Part shown: one piece after another, positions 21,898-31,672 of the stretch | Position numbering within the stretch: the stretch's first letter is position 1 | Layout: every line of letters starts with the position of its first letter | NCBI GenBank assembly: GCA_029243145.1 | Contig: JAQWSQ010000212.1 | Coordinates: 1 to 64,000 of the forward strand | Direction: 5' to 3' | From: Planctomycetaceae bacterium | Lineage (GTDB): Bacteria; Planctomycetota; Planctomycetia; Planctomycetales; Planctomycetaceae | Length of the DNA stretch: 64,000 bases | The notes under the pieces: model-generated | The model's database searches: none | Told to the model about the DNA's origin: nothing | Seen by the model: the letters and a program-made list of their open reading frames with translations, nothing else | Made by a program: the position numbers and the translations under genes

Positions 21898-23487
21898 TTA
21901 GGGAACGAGAGGTTTTTTCTGTGATTCACGCTTCAAGTCCTGCTCGACTTCAACTTTCATCATTTTGAATTCTTCATCGTCGGGCCTTTGTTCCAAAGCC
22001 TTCTGCAAGAAGAATAAGGCTTTTTGTGGACGGCCATTGTTCAACGAGGCTTCCGAGGCTTTCCTCAGCATCCAGACTTTTCCTGAATTTGACTCGATGT
22101 CGAATTCCATGAGCCGAATGCCATCGTCAATGCGCCCGTCTTTGATCAGTTGAGTGGCCAATGCGAAATTGCTGCCACCCCAAGCCGCCTTTTTCCCGTT
22201 GGCCTTAAACCATTCGATAGCCGCTTCAACTCCTTCAGATTTCACGAGCTGATACATTCGTTGTTCCTGTGTGAGACGAGATTTTGCCGGCATTCGATAG
22301 GGTTGCTCGGTAACAATGTGCATCAGTTCTGTGCTCAAATTCACAACGGCATTCCACACCTGCGACGATCCAAAAGAGTCTCCTTGATTGCATAGCACGA
22401 TCACAAAGGCGTCCTCATCAATCAGTCGGTTTTCCATCGCTCGGAATCCATTGATGGCTCCGCCGTGGTTGATCACTTTGAATCGTTTCTTCGTCATCGG
22501 ATGAGTGCGCGAATAAATTTGCCATCCATATCCATAAACGCTGTGTGCCCTGCCTCCAGCCGCTTTCACTTCAGGAACATCTCGATTCGGAGTGAACATC
22601 AGGTCTCGATGTTTTTGATCCAGAAGTTGATCAGTAGCGAGAGACCGATCCCATAAGAACATATCCTCGACCGTCGAATAAATTCCTCCGGCAGCACCCG
22701 GTGATGAATCCAGCTCCATGAACTCTGCGTTTTCGAGTCCGAACGGGCCGTAAGTGTATCCGCTGGCTCGTTTTTCAATCACACGTTCATTGCGATCATA
22801 CCCTGAATGATTCATCCCCGCGGGCTCGAAAATTCGCTCGTGCAGATTCTGTTCAAAAGTCTTACGCGTCACTTTTTCAATGATCCTACCCAGGATAATG
22901 TAGCCCGCGTTGCAATAGCTGTAGATCACACCGGGTTCATTCAATAAATCTCCACTGCAATATTCTTTGATGAATTCGTCTTTCCCGAAAGACAAGCGGG
23001 AAATTGTTCCGCGGTAATCAAAGTTCGCTGTGAAATCTTTAATGCCCGATTGATGAGCCATGAGGTGATGGACCGTGATTTTGTCTCCCGTATCTTTGCG
23101 GTAGTACGGCAGAAATTCGGATATTTTGTCCTCCAGTTTGATTTGTCCTTCCTGGACCAACTGCATGACGAGCATGGAACAGAACTGTTTACTGACCGAC
23201 GCCAGACGAAATTTAGTGTCCGTAGTATTGGAGATTTCCCATTCGTGATTTGCGAAACCAAACGCTTCTTTGTAAATCACCTTTCCCTCATCGGCGACTA
23301 GCACCGCACCCGTAAACAACTTTGTTTCGGCGGTCGCTTGGCATAATCGGCGCAACGCCTCCACTTTGTCGGGACCGACTTCCTCATACCCTTTGGGGAG
23401 AGTGATCTTCTTCTCTTGCGCGAATGAAATTTGGTTGAGCAACATGCCGACGAATAGTATTTTTATGATGACGAGAGTTGGGTGCAT
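21898..23487 (-). CDS. Serine hydrolase, beta-lactamase (class C / PBP) family
   Basis: A 529-residue exported protein. The ATG at 23487 is preferred over the in-frame ATG at 23505 because an AGAAAGAG ribosome-binding-like sequence precedes it. Signal peptide residues 1-24 end at SFAQ. The beta-lactamase/AmpC-like domain has the SxxK catalytic motif (LASVSKQF), the YxN motif (YSYCNAGY) and a late HGG motif (NHGGAING). Such proteins in planctomycetes are mostly esterases or DD-peptidase-like enzymes of unknown substrate. A C-terminal TPR-like helical stretch (about residues 420-520, ALFFLQKALEQRPDD) follows, which is common in this subgroup and may mediate protein contacts. Confidence 0.9.
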   Translation of the reverse strand: MHPTLVIIKILFVGMLLNQISFAQEKKITLPKGYEEVGPDKVEALRRLCQATAETKLFTGAVLVADEGKVIYKEAFGFANHEWEISNTTDTKFRLASVSKQFCSMLVMQLVQEGQIKLEDKISEFLPYYRKDTGDKITVHHLMAHQSGIKDFTANFDYRGTISRLSFGKDEFIKEYCSGDLLNEPGVIYSYCNAGYIILGRIIEKVTRKTFEQNLHERIFEPAGMNHSGYDRNERVIEKRASGYTYGPFGLENAEFMELDSSPGAAGGIYSTVEDMFLWDRSLATDQLLDQKHRDLMFTPNRDVPEVKAAGGRAHSVYGYGWQIYSRTHPMTKKRFKVINHGGAINGFRAMENRLIDEDAFVIVLCNQGDSFGSSQVWNAVVNLSTELMHIVTEQPYRMPAKSRLTQEQRMYQLVKSEGVEAAIEWFKANGKKAAWGGSNFALATQLIKDGRIDDGIRLMEFDIESNSGKVWMLRKASEASLNNGRPQKALFFLQKALEQRPDDEEFKMMKVEVEQDLKRESQKKPLVP

Positions 23488-23911
23488 GGTCTCTTTCTGA
23501 AACATGAAACTTCGAAATTTGAAATAACGGTGTTCTATGCATTGCTAGATCAAGAGTGTGAGCAAAAGAACTGCGATCTTTACAGATCTCGCTAAAACCG
23601 TTGAAAGAAAATGTGACATCAACTTTTTGTTTATTCATTCAAGTGTTCAACTGCGGTAGACCAACAATATCGCAAGAGTATCGGCGTGTGTTTCCCCATA
23701 CGGTTGATACTCTTCGTTTTTTTATGGTCGTGGAATGTTTGGAAAACAAACCTAGCTCAAAACTCCTGCACCAGATCGAAGACAAATTCTTGGACTCAAT
23801 TTCAAACCAATCCCGGAACATACGGTATGTTCTCTGTGAGGGCCATTCTTCACTCATAGCGCACCATGATTATTATTACTTTAATATCAAGAAAATACAC
23901 AGGTTATATTT
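23488..23911. other. Intergenic region, no gene recognised
   Basis: These 424 bp between the divergent serine-hydrolase gene and the small cysteine-rich gene are AT-richer than the surroundings. Short open frames exist on both strands but none has a recognisable domain or a good start. A T7 run is present at about 23719. Promoters for both flanking genes should lie here, yet I see no strong hexamer pair. Confidence 0.35.
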
Positions 23912-24160
23912 ATGTTCAAAAATACTTGCGTGCGTCTTGGAGTCATTTGTTGCTTGCTTTCATGCGTTTTGTCGATTCGATCATCTGAGGGATTTGATGC
24001 AGATATTGCGAGGCTATGTATGAATAGATTGTTTCGCTGTTTTGATCAAATTGATCGAGAGATACGCTTCGGAGGTGATGGCAGTATTACTGTCAAAAAC
24101 TGTATGATTGACTATCGACTGTGCATGTGGGTCGCGCAAACATCTGTTGGGCCAAAATGA
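23912..24160 (+). CDS. Small exported cysteine-rich protein, twin CX6C (paralogue 1)
   Basis: An 82-residue protein with an N-terminal hydrophobic segment (VICCLLSCVLSI, residues 11-22) that should act as a signal peptide. The mature part has exactly four cysteines in two CX6C pairs: C36/C43 (CMNRLFRC) and C64/C71 (CMIDYRLC). They are separated by 20 residues, as would suit a disulfide-locked helical hairpin. No known family is recognised. A second gene 131 bp downstream encodes a protein of the same length with its CX6C pairs at nearly the same positions, and this shared pattern is the main argument that both are real. Function unknown; a secreted or periplasmic role is inferred. Confidence 0.6.
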   Translation: MFKNTCVRLGVICCLLSCVLSIRSSEGFDADIARLCMNRLFRCFDQIDREIRFGGDGSITVKNCMIDYRLCMWVAQTSVGPK

Positions 24161-24291
24161 GTAATCACCTGTTTCTGAATCGTTGAATAATCCAGAATGG
24201 GAATGACATGTCCGCTTTTCGTCAAGTCTTAATGTGAATACGCATTAGTCGGATGAACCATTTTTACCAACTCAATACTGAGGCGGATTCC

Positions 24292-24534
24292 ATGTCATTG
24301 ATGAGAACGTTTTTCATTTTTACAGCATGCCTTTCCATCATCGCTTGCAGAGAGACTCTGTTAAACAAAGCCAATGCATCCTGGAGTATTAGCTGGTGCG
24401 AATCAGAGCTTCAGAATTGTATCGCTCAATCATGCACGGGCTTTCGCAGAACCAGTCGATGCCGACGTCAATGCTTCATGGACTACTACACCTGTCTGGA
24501 GATTGGAACAACGGCTCCACCGAGAGCTAAGTAA
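24292..24534 (+). CDS. Small exported cysteine-rich protein, twin CX6C (paralogue 2)
   Basis: An 80-residue protein. The ATG at 24292 is chosen over 24253 because a GAGG box precedes it and the product then begins with a signal peptide. The sequence SIIAC at residues 15-19 resembles a lipobox, so it may be a lipoprotein. The mature part has six cysteines, C36-x6-C43-x4-C48-x8-C57-x3-C61-x6-C68, including CESELQNC and CFMDYYTC. The latter resembles CMIDYRLC of the upstream paralogue. No known family is recognised. Its stop at 24534 abuts the point where the opposing histone-deacetylase-like fragment loses homology, so this pair may have been inserted into or beside that gene. Confidence 0.6.
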   Translation: MSLMRTFFIFTACLSIIACRETLLNKANASWSISWCESELQNCIAQSCTGFRRTSRCRRQCFMDYYTCLEIGTTAPPRAK

Positions 24535-24858
24535 CAATTTTCTCAACATCATGCTGAATATTTCGACAGCACATTCAGCATTCATCCCGATATCGAACGA
24601 CGCTTTGGAAACGACTGTATCGGCAGCAATTCTGCCGTCACCTCGCATGGAGAGTTGTTCAATCGCAGCGATGTGTTTCTCGGGATGAATATGTGACAGG
24701 ATTTTGCGGTCTGCCTTGACGGGTTCCCGGATCTGCCAATTCTGTTTGATGTCGGGTCGGTCAATCAGTTCTCGTAAGACCCGAATTCGGTCGGAGCATT
24801 CGGGGTGTTTTCCGGTTTTGTGGTGCTCAAATCGCTCGGAAGTATAGAGTGTGTGCAT
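24535..24858 (-). pseudogene. Truncated histone deacetylase-like gene (N-terminal fragment)
   Basis: From the ATG at 24858 about 107 residues match the N-terminus of the histone deacetylase/acetoin-utilisation deacetylase family: HHKTGKHPECSDRIRVL near the start, a SHIHPEKHIAAIEQL block, and AADTVVSKASFDIGMNAE, which corresponds to the family's D-T-x-x-S-x-x-S-x-x-A region. The catalytic GHH and Asp/His zinc-binding blocks that should follow are absent. Sequence after about 24535 is antisense to the small cysteine-rich gene. The fragment is about one third of the normal length of about 310 residues, so it is almost certainly inactive. Confidence 0.75.
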
Positions 24859-29083: not shown

Positions 29084-31672
29084 ATGATGACACGATTGAC
29101 GATTTGGCTGAACCTGGTTTTGTTTTCTGCGACTGTATGGGGGGAGGTTCCCAATCCGTATCCTCCACAAGCGGGCGAAAAATCCCTGGTTGTGCGTTGG
29201 GACTTTGAGACGGGAGTCGAAGGTTGGACGGCGCATCAGGATGTCGTCATGTCGCACGATGACGGTGTGATGACTCTCATTACTTCTGCGCCCGATCCGA
29301 TTATCAACTCTCCAAAATTTGATGTCGCTCCGAATTCGCTAGTGACTATTACTCTCCGCGTCCGTTCGCAAGTTTCGACCGAGGCACAATTTTTCTGGAA
29401 TAGCAATCAAATTTCGGCCTCGACTGAGACCCGAAAAACTGCGTTTCTGATTGCAAAATCCGACGATTGGAAAACCTACCAATGTTCGATGAGCTATGAA
29501 GGACGATTACAACGAATACGATTTGATCCCGCTACGGTTGACGGAAAAGTCGAAATCGACTGGATTCAAATTGAAGCGTCTCCCCGTCCTGCATTATTGA
29601 TTGCAGCGGTTGAGCAAACAGATAACGGATTACAGGCAGTCGTTCAAAATCGCACTGCCAAAATGGTGGGATTTGATCTGAATGGATCGACTGTCTCTCT
29701 GCCTGCCGACGTTCAAAAAACTTTTCCGCTACAGGATTCTCTGATCGGCTCGCAATTCGTCAAACCGGTCAAAGTGACCGTTCAGAAATTAGGCGATCCG
29801 ACTCAAAGCCGTATCGCGGTGTTGATCAATCCCGCAGGGAAAGACGACTGGTTTCGTTTGACCTCGGGCGACTTGACTCTCGAAGTGGCCTCTAACGGTC
29901 ACGGTGCAAGAATCCTCAAACGAAAACAACCAGTCGCCGTGATTGCTCCACTTGCCTGGAAACCGGGGAATTTGATCGATCTGAATGTCAGACGGGAAGG
30001 AGAAAGTATTGTTTGTTCGGGTGGCCCCGTGACAAATCTGGTTCTCAGTTTCAGAGATGGAGAACTTAATTACGAACTTCAGGCCAAGGAAGAGATCGAA
30101 GGCCCCGCCGTTCGCGCGCTGGGTCAGCTCGAACAAGGATTGTTGCCGGGAGTCGAGCATCTCGGACGCGGAGAGTCTTCTTCTTCGACCCTCGATATTC
30201 ATGGCCCGGAGCATGTCCGCTATCAGCCTCCTTATTGGCACGTCACGATGCCTTTAATGACCTATGTGACTGATCGTGCCTCGATCTCGTTGGCATGGGA
30301 GAAGACAAGTTTACAGCCGACATTTGCGACACCAAATTTTTTTGATGGCACTGATGATCACCGGATGTCTTTGAAGGGATCTCAAATCTCGGCAACACTC
30401 AGAATCGGCGATTCGTTTGCTGAAGGCGAACGGCTCTCCGATTCGATTCTCTGGGCCGTCCGCAGAGCGGGGGGGTTCCCCACCTTGCCGGAAACTGGCA
30501 TGACGACCGAGCAGGAATGGGATCTGTCCCGAACAGGATTGATGAAAAGTGATCTTTTCGAGGAGGGGGCTTGGTATCATGCGATTGTTCCCGGACATCG
30601 AAAGATGCCCGACAAACCCAAGTATTTCTCAGACATGGCGTCCGCACTCTTTCGGCTTGACGGAACATTACCGAACACAGAAAACCTCCATCGTGGCGGG
30701 GGACATATCCGCAATGACACAGCCTTTTTCGTAACGGGTCAGGTCGAACAATGGTTGCGCCAAATCGATCAGCAGGCGGCCAATTCTCGACGGATTCAAA
30801 AGGAGGATGGTTCATACCGCTATGACGGTGAATTCAAAGTAGGTCACTTCGAGAATACGTCGAGTGGTCAATGTGCGCAGCATGCCGTGATTCTTTTAGA
30901 ACATGCGAAAGCCACCGGGAATACGTCGTCTCTTGCTGCTGGTTTGAAGTCGCTCGAATTTATGAAGCGGTTTCGGACACTCCGAGGTGCGCAAGTCTGG
31001 GAATGTCCGCTGCATGCACCCGATTTGATGGCCAGTGCGAAGATGGTGAGTGCCTATGTCATCGCCTACGAATTAACTCAGAGTCGCGAATACCTGGATC
31101 TAGCAGTCCAGTGGGCGTTAACCGGCGTGCCCTACATCTATCTTTGGAATGAATGGCCAATCCAGCGATATGCGAGCATCGCCACGTTGTGCGCGACTCA
31201 TTATCAGGCACCCGTCTGGATTGGACGACCGGTCCAGTGGGTCGGTTTGGTTTACGCCGACGCACTTCTCGATCTCTCTCAACACGATCAAACACTCGAT
31301 TGGAACCACCTTGCGAACGGGATTCTCATCAGTGGTATTCAGCAGCAATATCTGGAGGGGCCAACGATTGGCTCATTGGCAGATTCGCTCAATATGCCGT
31401 CTCAAAAGCTGTTGCCTGCGGATATCAATCCCTGTTCTTTGATGACATTGCGAATGCGTCTGGAGGGGACTCAGGATCGTCCGAGAACTGTGATGAACGG
31501 ATCACATCGGATCGTTTCGCCATTTCCCACCAAATTTATATCTGACACAGAAGTCGAAATTTCAGCAACACGGGGGCTCACCTATCAGATATTAATTGAT
31601 GGGAAGCAGGTTCGATCCATCGATTCCATCGGTCGTGATCGTATCAGTCTCTTACCAGAGAAGAGAAACTAA
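29084..31672 (+). CDS. Secreted putative glycan-active enzyme (binding module + alpha-toroid)
   Basis: An 862-residue exported protein with signal peptide residues 1-20 (ATVWGE). The N-terminal part (about 30-160) is beta-rich and resembles a carbohydrate-binding jelly roll (VVRWDFETGVEGW, then VEIDWIQIEA). A second beta-rich region follows. From about residue 500 the chain is helical with repeated aromatic/His segments (AQHAVILLEHAKATGN, KMVSAYVIAYELTQSREYLDLAVQWAL, the latter quoted in pieces as KMVSAYVIAYELT and YLDLAVQWAL), which suggests an (alpha/alpha)6 toroid as in polysaccharide lyases and unsaturated glucuronyl hydrolases. I cannot place it in a named family. The sulfatase and sialidase-like genes nearby fit a role in complex glycan breakdown, by inference. 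Confidence 0.8.
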   Translation: MMTRLTIWLNLVLFSATVWGEVPNPYPPQAGEKSLVVRWDFETGVEGWTAHQDVVMSHDDGVMTLITSAPDPIINSPKFDVAPNSLVTITLRVRSQVSTEAQFFWNSNQISASTETRKTAFLIAKSDDWKTYQCSMSYEGRLQRIRFDPATVDGKVEIDWIQIEASPRPALLIAAVEQTDNGLQAVVQNRTAKMVGFDLNGSTVSLPADVQKTFPLQDSLIGSQFVKPVKVTVQKLGDPTQSRIAVLINPAGKDDWFRLTSGDLTLEVASNGHGARILKRKQPVAVIAPLAWKPGNLIDLNVRREGESIVCSGGPVTNLVLSFRDGELNYELQAKEEIEGPAVRALGQLEQGLLPGVEHLGRGESSSSTLDIHGPEHVRYQPPYWHVTMPLMTYVTDRASISLAWEKTSLQPTFATPNFFDGTDDHRMSLKGSQISATLRIGDSFAEGERLSDSILWAVRRAGGFPTLPETGMTTEQEWDLSRTGLMKSDLFEEGAWYHAIVPGHRKMPDKPKYFSDMASALFRLDGTLPNTENLHRGGGHIRNDTAFFVTGQVEQWLRQIDQQAANSRRIQKEDGSYRYDGEFKVGHFENTSSGQCAQHAVILLEHAKATGNTSSLAAGLKSLEFMKRFRTLRGAQVWECPLHAPDLMASAKMVSAYVIAYELTQSREYLDLAVQWALTGVPYIYLWNEWPIQRYASIATLCATHYQAPVWIGRPVQWVGLVYADALLDLSQHDQTLDWNHLANGILISGIQQQYLEGPTIGSLADSLNMPSQKLLPADINPCSLMTLRMRLEGTQDRPRTVMNGSHRIVSPFPTKFISDTEVEISATRGLTYQILIDGKQVRSIDSIGRDRISLLPEKRN

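Follow-up and report, generated by a model that had tools for sequence, protein, structure and literature searches.

A window of 64,000 nucleotides of Planctomycetaceae DNA, the whole stretch analysed here, contains two adjacent open reading frames (ORF) that encode small exported proteins with regularly spaced cysteines. The locus raises the question of whether such short ORF are genuine genes and, if they are, how their products fold, how widely they occur and how they came to lie beside a truncated gene. Our explanation is that ORF1 and ORF2 encode lineage-restricted, Sec-exported and disulfide-locked hairpin miniproteins, arranged in tandem diverged pairs. This explanation as a whole is held with reasonable confidence. 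That the ORF are real genes of one family is highly probable, and the disulfide-locked hairpin is likely. On the other hand, any role in extracellular binding or antagonism is doubtful.

The two ORF and their export signals

ORF1 (P0001) is placed at positions 23912 to 24160 and ORF2 (P0002) at 24292 to 24534, both on the forward strand, and they encode exported miniproteins of 82 and 80 aa. ORF1 consists of a signal peptide, MFKNTCVRLGVICCLLSCVLSIRSSEG, and a mature part with four cysteines, FDADIARLCMNRLFRCFDQIDREIRFGGDGSITVKNCMIDYRLCMWVAQTSVGPK, on either side of the estimated cut site. The signal peptide (residues 1–26; 23912 to 23989), with an approximate cut at SEG/F, is recognized in the sequence by K3 and R8, a hydrophobic segment at 9–22 and polar residues at 23–26, and it aligns with the AEA/F of the homologs. 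The first CX6C of ORF1 is formed by Cys36 and Cys43 (24017 to 24040) and the second, within the octet CMIDYRLC, by Cys64 and Cys71 (24101 to 24124). ORF2 reads MSLMRTFFIFTACLSIIACRETLLNKANA before and SWSISWCESELQNCIAQSCTGFRRTSRCRRQCFMDYYTCLEIGTTAPPRAK after its estimated cut site, and its six mature cysteines follow the layout CX6CX4C-X8-CX3CX6C. Its two CX6C are Cys36-Cys43 (24397 to 24420) and Cys61-Cys68 (24472 to 24495; CFMDYYTC), and the extra Cys48 and Cys57 between them (24433 to 24462) are proposed to form an inner, third rung. The tandem ORF, the four CX6C positions, both octets and the two additional cysteines of ORF2 had all been pointed out in the initial annotation, and the sequence bears them out.

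The same annotation ascribed a lipobox-like signal to ORF2. The motif is present (IIAC at residues 16–19, against the consensus [LVI][ASTVI][GAS]C after the signal h-region), but its reading as a lipobox is doubtful, and ORF2 is only a candidate lipoprotein, because the homologs carry signal peptidase I-type sites (AEA/F, AHA/S) and ORF2 has ANA/S at the aligned place.

Chance occurrence of the cysteine pattern

Both ORF might be spurious, lying in intergenic DNA of low G+C content (41%) and showing a cysteine pattern by coincidence. This explanation draws on weak start signals (no reliable Shine-Dalgarno or promoter signals were seen), on single-sequence searches that yielded noise-level matches only and on the lack of a sequence-level ortholog of either window ORF in the genomes searched, so that the constraint measured below concerns the relatives A and B.

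Twin CX6C arises in 0.2% of the shuffles of the mature residues of ORF1 and in 3% of those of ORF2. A scanner for a signal peptide followed by twin CXnC retrieved six ORF in 0.8 Mb, a sample partly made of loci picked by homology, and every one of them falls within three tandem pairs. Applied to 2.4 Mb of Markov-shuffled DNA, the same scanner gave two matches and no pair, a specificity that argues against spurious ORF. A scan for exported hairpins in a further 0.72 Mb of the window's own genome (G000) and of a congeneric metagenome-assembled sister genome (G002) gave no convincing additional member, the chance rate of the relaxed scanner being 2 per 1.5 Mb. At the DNA level, the pattern of twin CX6C with DY in the second arm, where DY was chosen post hoc, occurred 15 times in any frame of 99 genomes, which is not above the reversed control; two neighboring matches were found only at the window locus.

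A second tandem pair and signs of constraint

The window's genome contains a second tandem pair, here called A and B, at G000:C231:82540-83047. Its orthologs are found in the sister genome at G002:C12:32789-33302, and both loci are flanked by the same M3 peptidase and VOC genes. A (MLLTRCLMIVAVCSTILYSSQKAEAFSIWCEAQYEIDKISCTYRYDFDTQSWIGCRQQAMQDIHSCYASVSTWEFGI) has CX10C/CX10C arms and B (MQKSILRLTAILFFITAFVVVNSPKQQAHASLGFCNSWPNECIAGSRGFENTYECGASWDACVFFFVD) has CX6C/CX6C arms. Between the two genomes the protein identity is 81% for A and 87% for B, and every cysteine is kept. The substitutions by codon position are 10, 8 and 26 in A and 6, 3 and 8 in B. The corresponding dN/dS values (NG86) are 0.13/0.72, about 0.19, for A, and 0.07/0.16, about 0.3–0.4, for B. 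Judged from these values, gene A appears clearly constrained, and for gene B, which is short, the constraint is only suggestive. The conservation of this pair, with its third-position bias and its intact cysteines, speaks against coincidence.

The C12 locus was first picked up as the best match of ORF2 (E=0.0035). On reading, it turned out to be one of two adjoining small exported genes, and the relative was recognized through its tandem partner and position. The similarity of the proteins was then compared with shuffles in which the cysteines were held fixed. ORF1 and ORF2 align across the cysteine region (P=0.018), in agreement with the earlier view that they are a pair of related genes. ORF2 resembles A through SIxWCE...SC...CRxxxxxDxx[ST]C (P=0.003) and B through CxSxxxxCIAxSxxGFxxTxxC (P=0.0015). 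A and B show no detectable similarity to each other past their architecture in the shuffle test. ORF2 thus appears to bridge the window pair and the C231/C12 pair, and its similarity to both A and B is a further argument against spurious ORF, an explanation we regard as very improbable.

The end of gene B is itself unusual. Its last ~60 bases are identical at G000:C231 and G002:C12, in genomes with about 14% divergence at the histone-deacetylase (HDAC) locus, and the sequence directly downstream is also unusually conserved between them. An RNA or DNA element may be conserved there, overlapping the end of the gene. About 200 bases 3' of gene B both loci carry a conserved imperfect palindrome, CCCACATGCTCGCGCATGTGGG, of which the window holds no copy allowing up to 3 mismatches.

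Distribution of the family

Neither ORF1 nor ORF2 matched any family in Pfam, NCBIfam, PHROG, PADLOC (including its anti-phage defence models) or the PDB sequences, as was expected from the claim that no bacterial family of this design is known. Against Pfam, A and B gave unrelated sub-threshold matches only. Searches with single proteins in 149 relatives returned noise, except for G002:C12; a two-sequence profile returned noise in 298 relatives and nothing in the contigs of the genome, and the viral, phage and plasmid collections returned nothing. A six-row profile found the family only in G000 and G002 among 170 genomes of the taxonomic family. Among 392 genomes of the phylum it found G000, plus one chance-level match elsewhere, and G002 was unreported in that draw. 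Homologues of the kind sought at the outset thus exist in a related genome, and the family is apparently restricted to the genus. This absence elsewhere is one of recognizable sequence and not of architecture, because the profiles also missed the CX7C candidate described below. How small secreted proteins that change rapidly elude sequence searches is illustrated by the E=0.0035 of the key relative.

Several matches were set aside. Those within ORF of 557–575 aa belong to isochorismatase-like proteins, a match in G216 (E=3e-6) lacks an exported ORF, and those at G001:C148 and G002:C15 are not family members.

The narrow distribution bears on a structural role in the envelope. Planctomycete walls are proteinaceous and contain cysteines, so the miniproteins could cross-link to one another or to cysteine-rich wall proteins through intermolecular disulfides, and a lipoprotein signal such as the possible one of ORF2 would suit this location. 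On the other hand, a structural component unrecognizable in nearly all relatives would be odd, and the cysteine pairs are even in number and self-satisfying. We consider such a role improbable.

Predicted fold and matched cysteine arms

Paired helices were the structural expectation set beforehand, and AlphaFold2 returned them for both proteins, less confidently for ORF2. For mature ORF1, modelled with no alignment, helix 1 (residues 29–52; 23996 to 24067) bears Cys36 and Cys43 and helix 2 (residues 58–77; 24083 to 24142) bears Cys64 and Cys71. The helices are joined by a five-residue turn at 53–57. The pLDDT averages 87.8 and is at least 86 in four of the five models. The single-sequence model of ORF2 is moderate (pLDDT 71), with helices at 33–47 and 51–74 and a turn at 48–50. 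Foldseek gave no match in the PDB at E<=0.001, which is expected since the fold is so simple.

The cysteine arms are matched in each protein: 6/6 in ORF1, ORF2 and B, 10/10 in A and 7/7 in the seventh candidate. The arm length thus varies among paralogs (6, 7, 10) and the two arms of each protein remain equal, which occurs in about 3–4% of the shuffles per four-cysteine protein tested. Matched arms are what nested C1-C4/C2-C3 disulfides over a helical hairpin would need. In such a pairing the residue numbers of the partners give a constant sum: 36+71=43+64=107 in ORF1, 30+66=41+55=96 in A, 35+62=42+55=97 in B and 36+68=43+61=104 in ORF2. In the four-cysteine proteins the equal sums follow from the equal arms. 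The third pair of ORF2 is an independent check, and its sum (48+57=105) places the extra cysteines on the same hairpin axis. The predicted turn of ORF1 adjoins its nested-pairing center at 53.5, and that of ORF2 lies a few residues off its center at 52. The disulfide-locked helical hairpin first suggested for these proteins is hence upheld as regards its two predicted helices, but CX6C does not hold as the defining spacing; the equal arms (6/6, 7/7, 10/10) appear to be the defining feature.

Metal binding would be another use for these cysteines, the proteins being exported helical metallo-miniproteins that scavenge copper, e.g., as Cu(I), or zinc. Helical metal-binding proteins lined with thiols have their cysteines on one side of the helix, copper is carried by some twin-CX9C proteins, Cox17 among them, and the i/i+7 and i/i+11 cysteines of the family share one helix face. 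However, the mature cysteines are even in number, the arms are equal and mirrored, neither CXC nor CXXC occurs, no metal-handling neighbors were seen and export favors oxidation. We consider metal binding improbable.

The HDAC locus and a seventh candidate

The initial annotation described a histone-deacetylase-like gene cut short at the locus. This proved correct: the ORF of this family on the reverse strand (24430 to 24858) covers only positions 1–80 of PF00850 and its homology stops at 24569, whereas the gene is whole in G001 (308 aa) and intact in G002 (311 aa; PF00850 positions 1–297). Next to it, positions 23524 to 24568 have no DNA similarity to G001 or G002, show 41% G+C against 50% in the window and contain both ORF.

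Just 3' of the intact HDAC gene of G002 lies a seventh candidate (G002:C100:<1-170), an exported-looking CX7C/CX7C protein, IMVILACIFSLASVETAQSGNRRCMEIADFWCSGNGGGWEDYAECMDDLYIDCAY, read up to its stop. Its start is cut by the end of the contig and its strand corresponds to that of the window ORF. The gene order of G002 (hairpin gene forward, HDAC reverse, HEAT-like gene forward) is the same as in the window. In G001, the HDAC gene is followed instead by a gene that we take, from reading its sequence, to be NrdR-like. The membership of the seventh candidate rests on architecture and position, because its sequence similarity to the other family proteins is not significant.

The suggestion that the window genes arrived recently in a broken HDAC gene is probably wrong. 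The family appears to predate the HDAC lesion of the window lineage, since the G002 candidate adjoins an intact HDAC gene in the same place and orientation and since both genomes have another pair, orthologous between them, at a conserved locus. The lesion more plausibly reflects a separate loss that came later. The insert gave no match to Rfam and convincing terminal repeats were lacking, which argues against its origin as an integron, RNA element or transposon. At the DNA level, ORF1 and ORF2 are no more similar than by chance, and the same holds for the insert compared with the C231 locus. A 21-base inverted repeat (86%; 24072-24092 and 24624-24644) ties ORF1 to the HDAC remnant and could be due to chance.

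Comparison with known helical hairpins

The best-known helical hairpins with twin CXnC come from mitochondria, plants and venoms. The CHCH (twin CX9C) proteins of the mitochondrial intermembrane space have equal CXnC arms, as does the present family, and two helices, which in the family are predicted; their nested disulfides, here proposed, are known, as in CHCHD1 (Cys45-Cys76 and Cys55-Cys66; PMC12114033). The family differs in its arms of 6, 7 or 10 instead of 9, in its bacterial origin and in its N-terminal Sec-type signal, and ORF1 and ORF2 match neither the CHCH/CX9C Pfam models nor any PDB sequence. NDUFB10-type proteins (CX6C/CX11C) are likewise helical and disulfide-linked and include a CX6C element (PMC12114033), but their arms are unequal, they are mitochondrial complex I subunits and no similarity was found.

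The plant alpha-hairpinins occur in 4C (CX3CX4-20CX3C) and 6C (CX3CX3CX4-20CX3CX3C) forms (PMC7191063, PMC11591084). They are small secreted helix-loop-helix peptides comparable to the predicted helix pair in the 4C layout, and the 6C layout (CX3CX3C...CX3CX3C) parallels the CX6CX4C...CX3CX6C of ORF2. They are, however, plant peptides defined by CX3C arms, of which the family has a single instance, in ORF2, among arms of 6, 7 or 10, and no sequence similarity was found. The kappa-KTx scorpion toxins are also short disulfide helical hairpins, but they belong to animal venom, have another spacing and show no significant similarity (the phmmer match to 2ndd is at chance level, E 1.2).

Since the CX9C and CX3C spacings are not those of the family and no family model matches, these proteins appear to be a new bacterial form of the disulfide-locked helical hairpin, analogous to CHCH proteins and alpha-hairpinins and not members of either. 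The likeness is probably due to convergence. A bacterial reinvention with other arm lengths would show, by natural example, which cysteine spacings can lock a hairpin, and the family would offer a compact, expressible scaffold.

Proposed mechanism and possible function

The recognized members look exported and small (about 36–55 aa when mature), with two equal CXnC arms and a tandem arrangement, the partner of the seventh candidate falling beyond the contig edge. In the proposed mechanism, the signal peptide, recognized by its pattern, would direct export. Outside the cytoplasm, the equal arms of two antiparallel helices would be joined by nested disulfides, C1-C4 and C2-C3. From the arm spacings and the structure prediction, the pairs would be 36-71 and 43-64 in ORF1, and 36-68, 43-61 and the third rung 48-57 in ORF2. 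The stapled hairpin would then be a stable scaffold whose other residues seem to vary almost freely between paralogs. Such a scaffold might act as a small periplasmic or extracellular binding module, directed to competitors, the envelope or an enzyme, and the two proteins of a pair might cooperate. Our best guess is a binding scaffold, secreted or periplasmic, that may work in pairs. The broader proposal is put forward tentatively: bacterial disulfide-ladder hairpins that arose independently, whose arms change length in step on both helices (6, 7, 10, or three rungs) and whose co-acting pairs serve as variable secreted binding scaffolds.

A more specific function would be that of secreted two-component antimicrobial or toxin-like peptides, the pair jointly attacking competitors like alpha-hairpinins or two-peptide bacteriocins. 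The products are small, exported, tandem and diverged, with a conserved scaffold and a hypervariable surface, and their 4C and 6C layouts parallel those of the alpha-hairpinins (PMC11591084). However, the net charges across the family proteins (+1, +3, -2, -4, -6) are not consistently positive, as would be expected of a simple cationic antimicrobial, neither an immunity nor a transport gene was identified alongside, and the orthologs are under purifying, not diversifying, selection. We regard this function as unlikely.

The window neighbors comprise a beta-lactamase-family hydrolase with TPR, a HEAT-like protein, STAS and a MoxR ATPase, none of which points to a pathway. An ORF of 862 aa without a Pfam match is located at 29084-31672. 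The beta-lactamase-family/TPR gene (21898-23505) encodes 535 aa, and its counterpart at G002:C104 is cut to 209 aa, about 1 kb being lost inside the gene.
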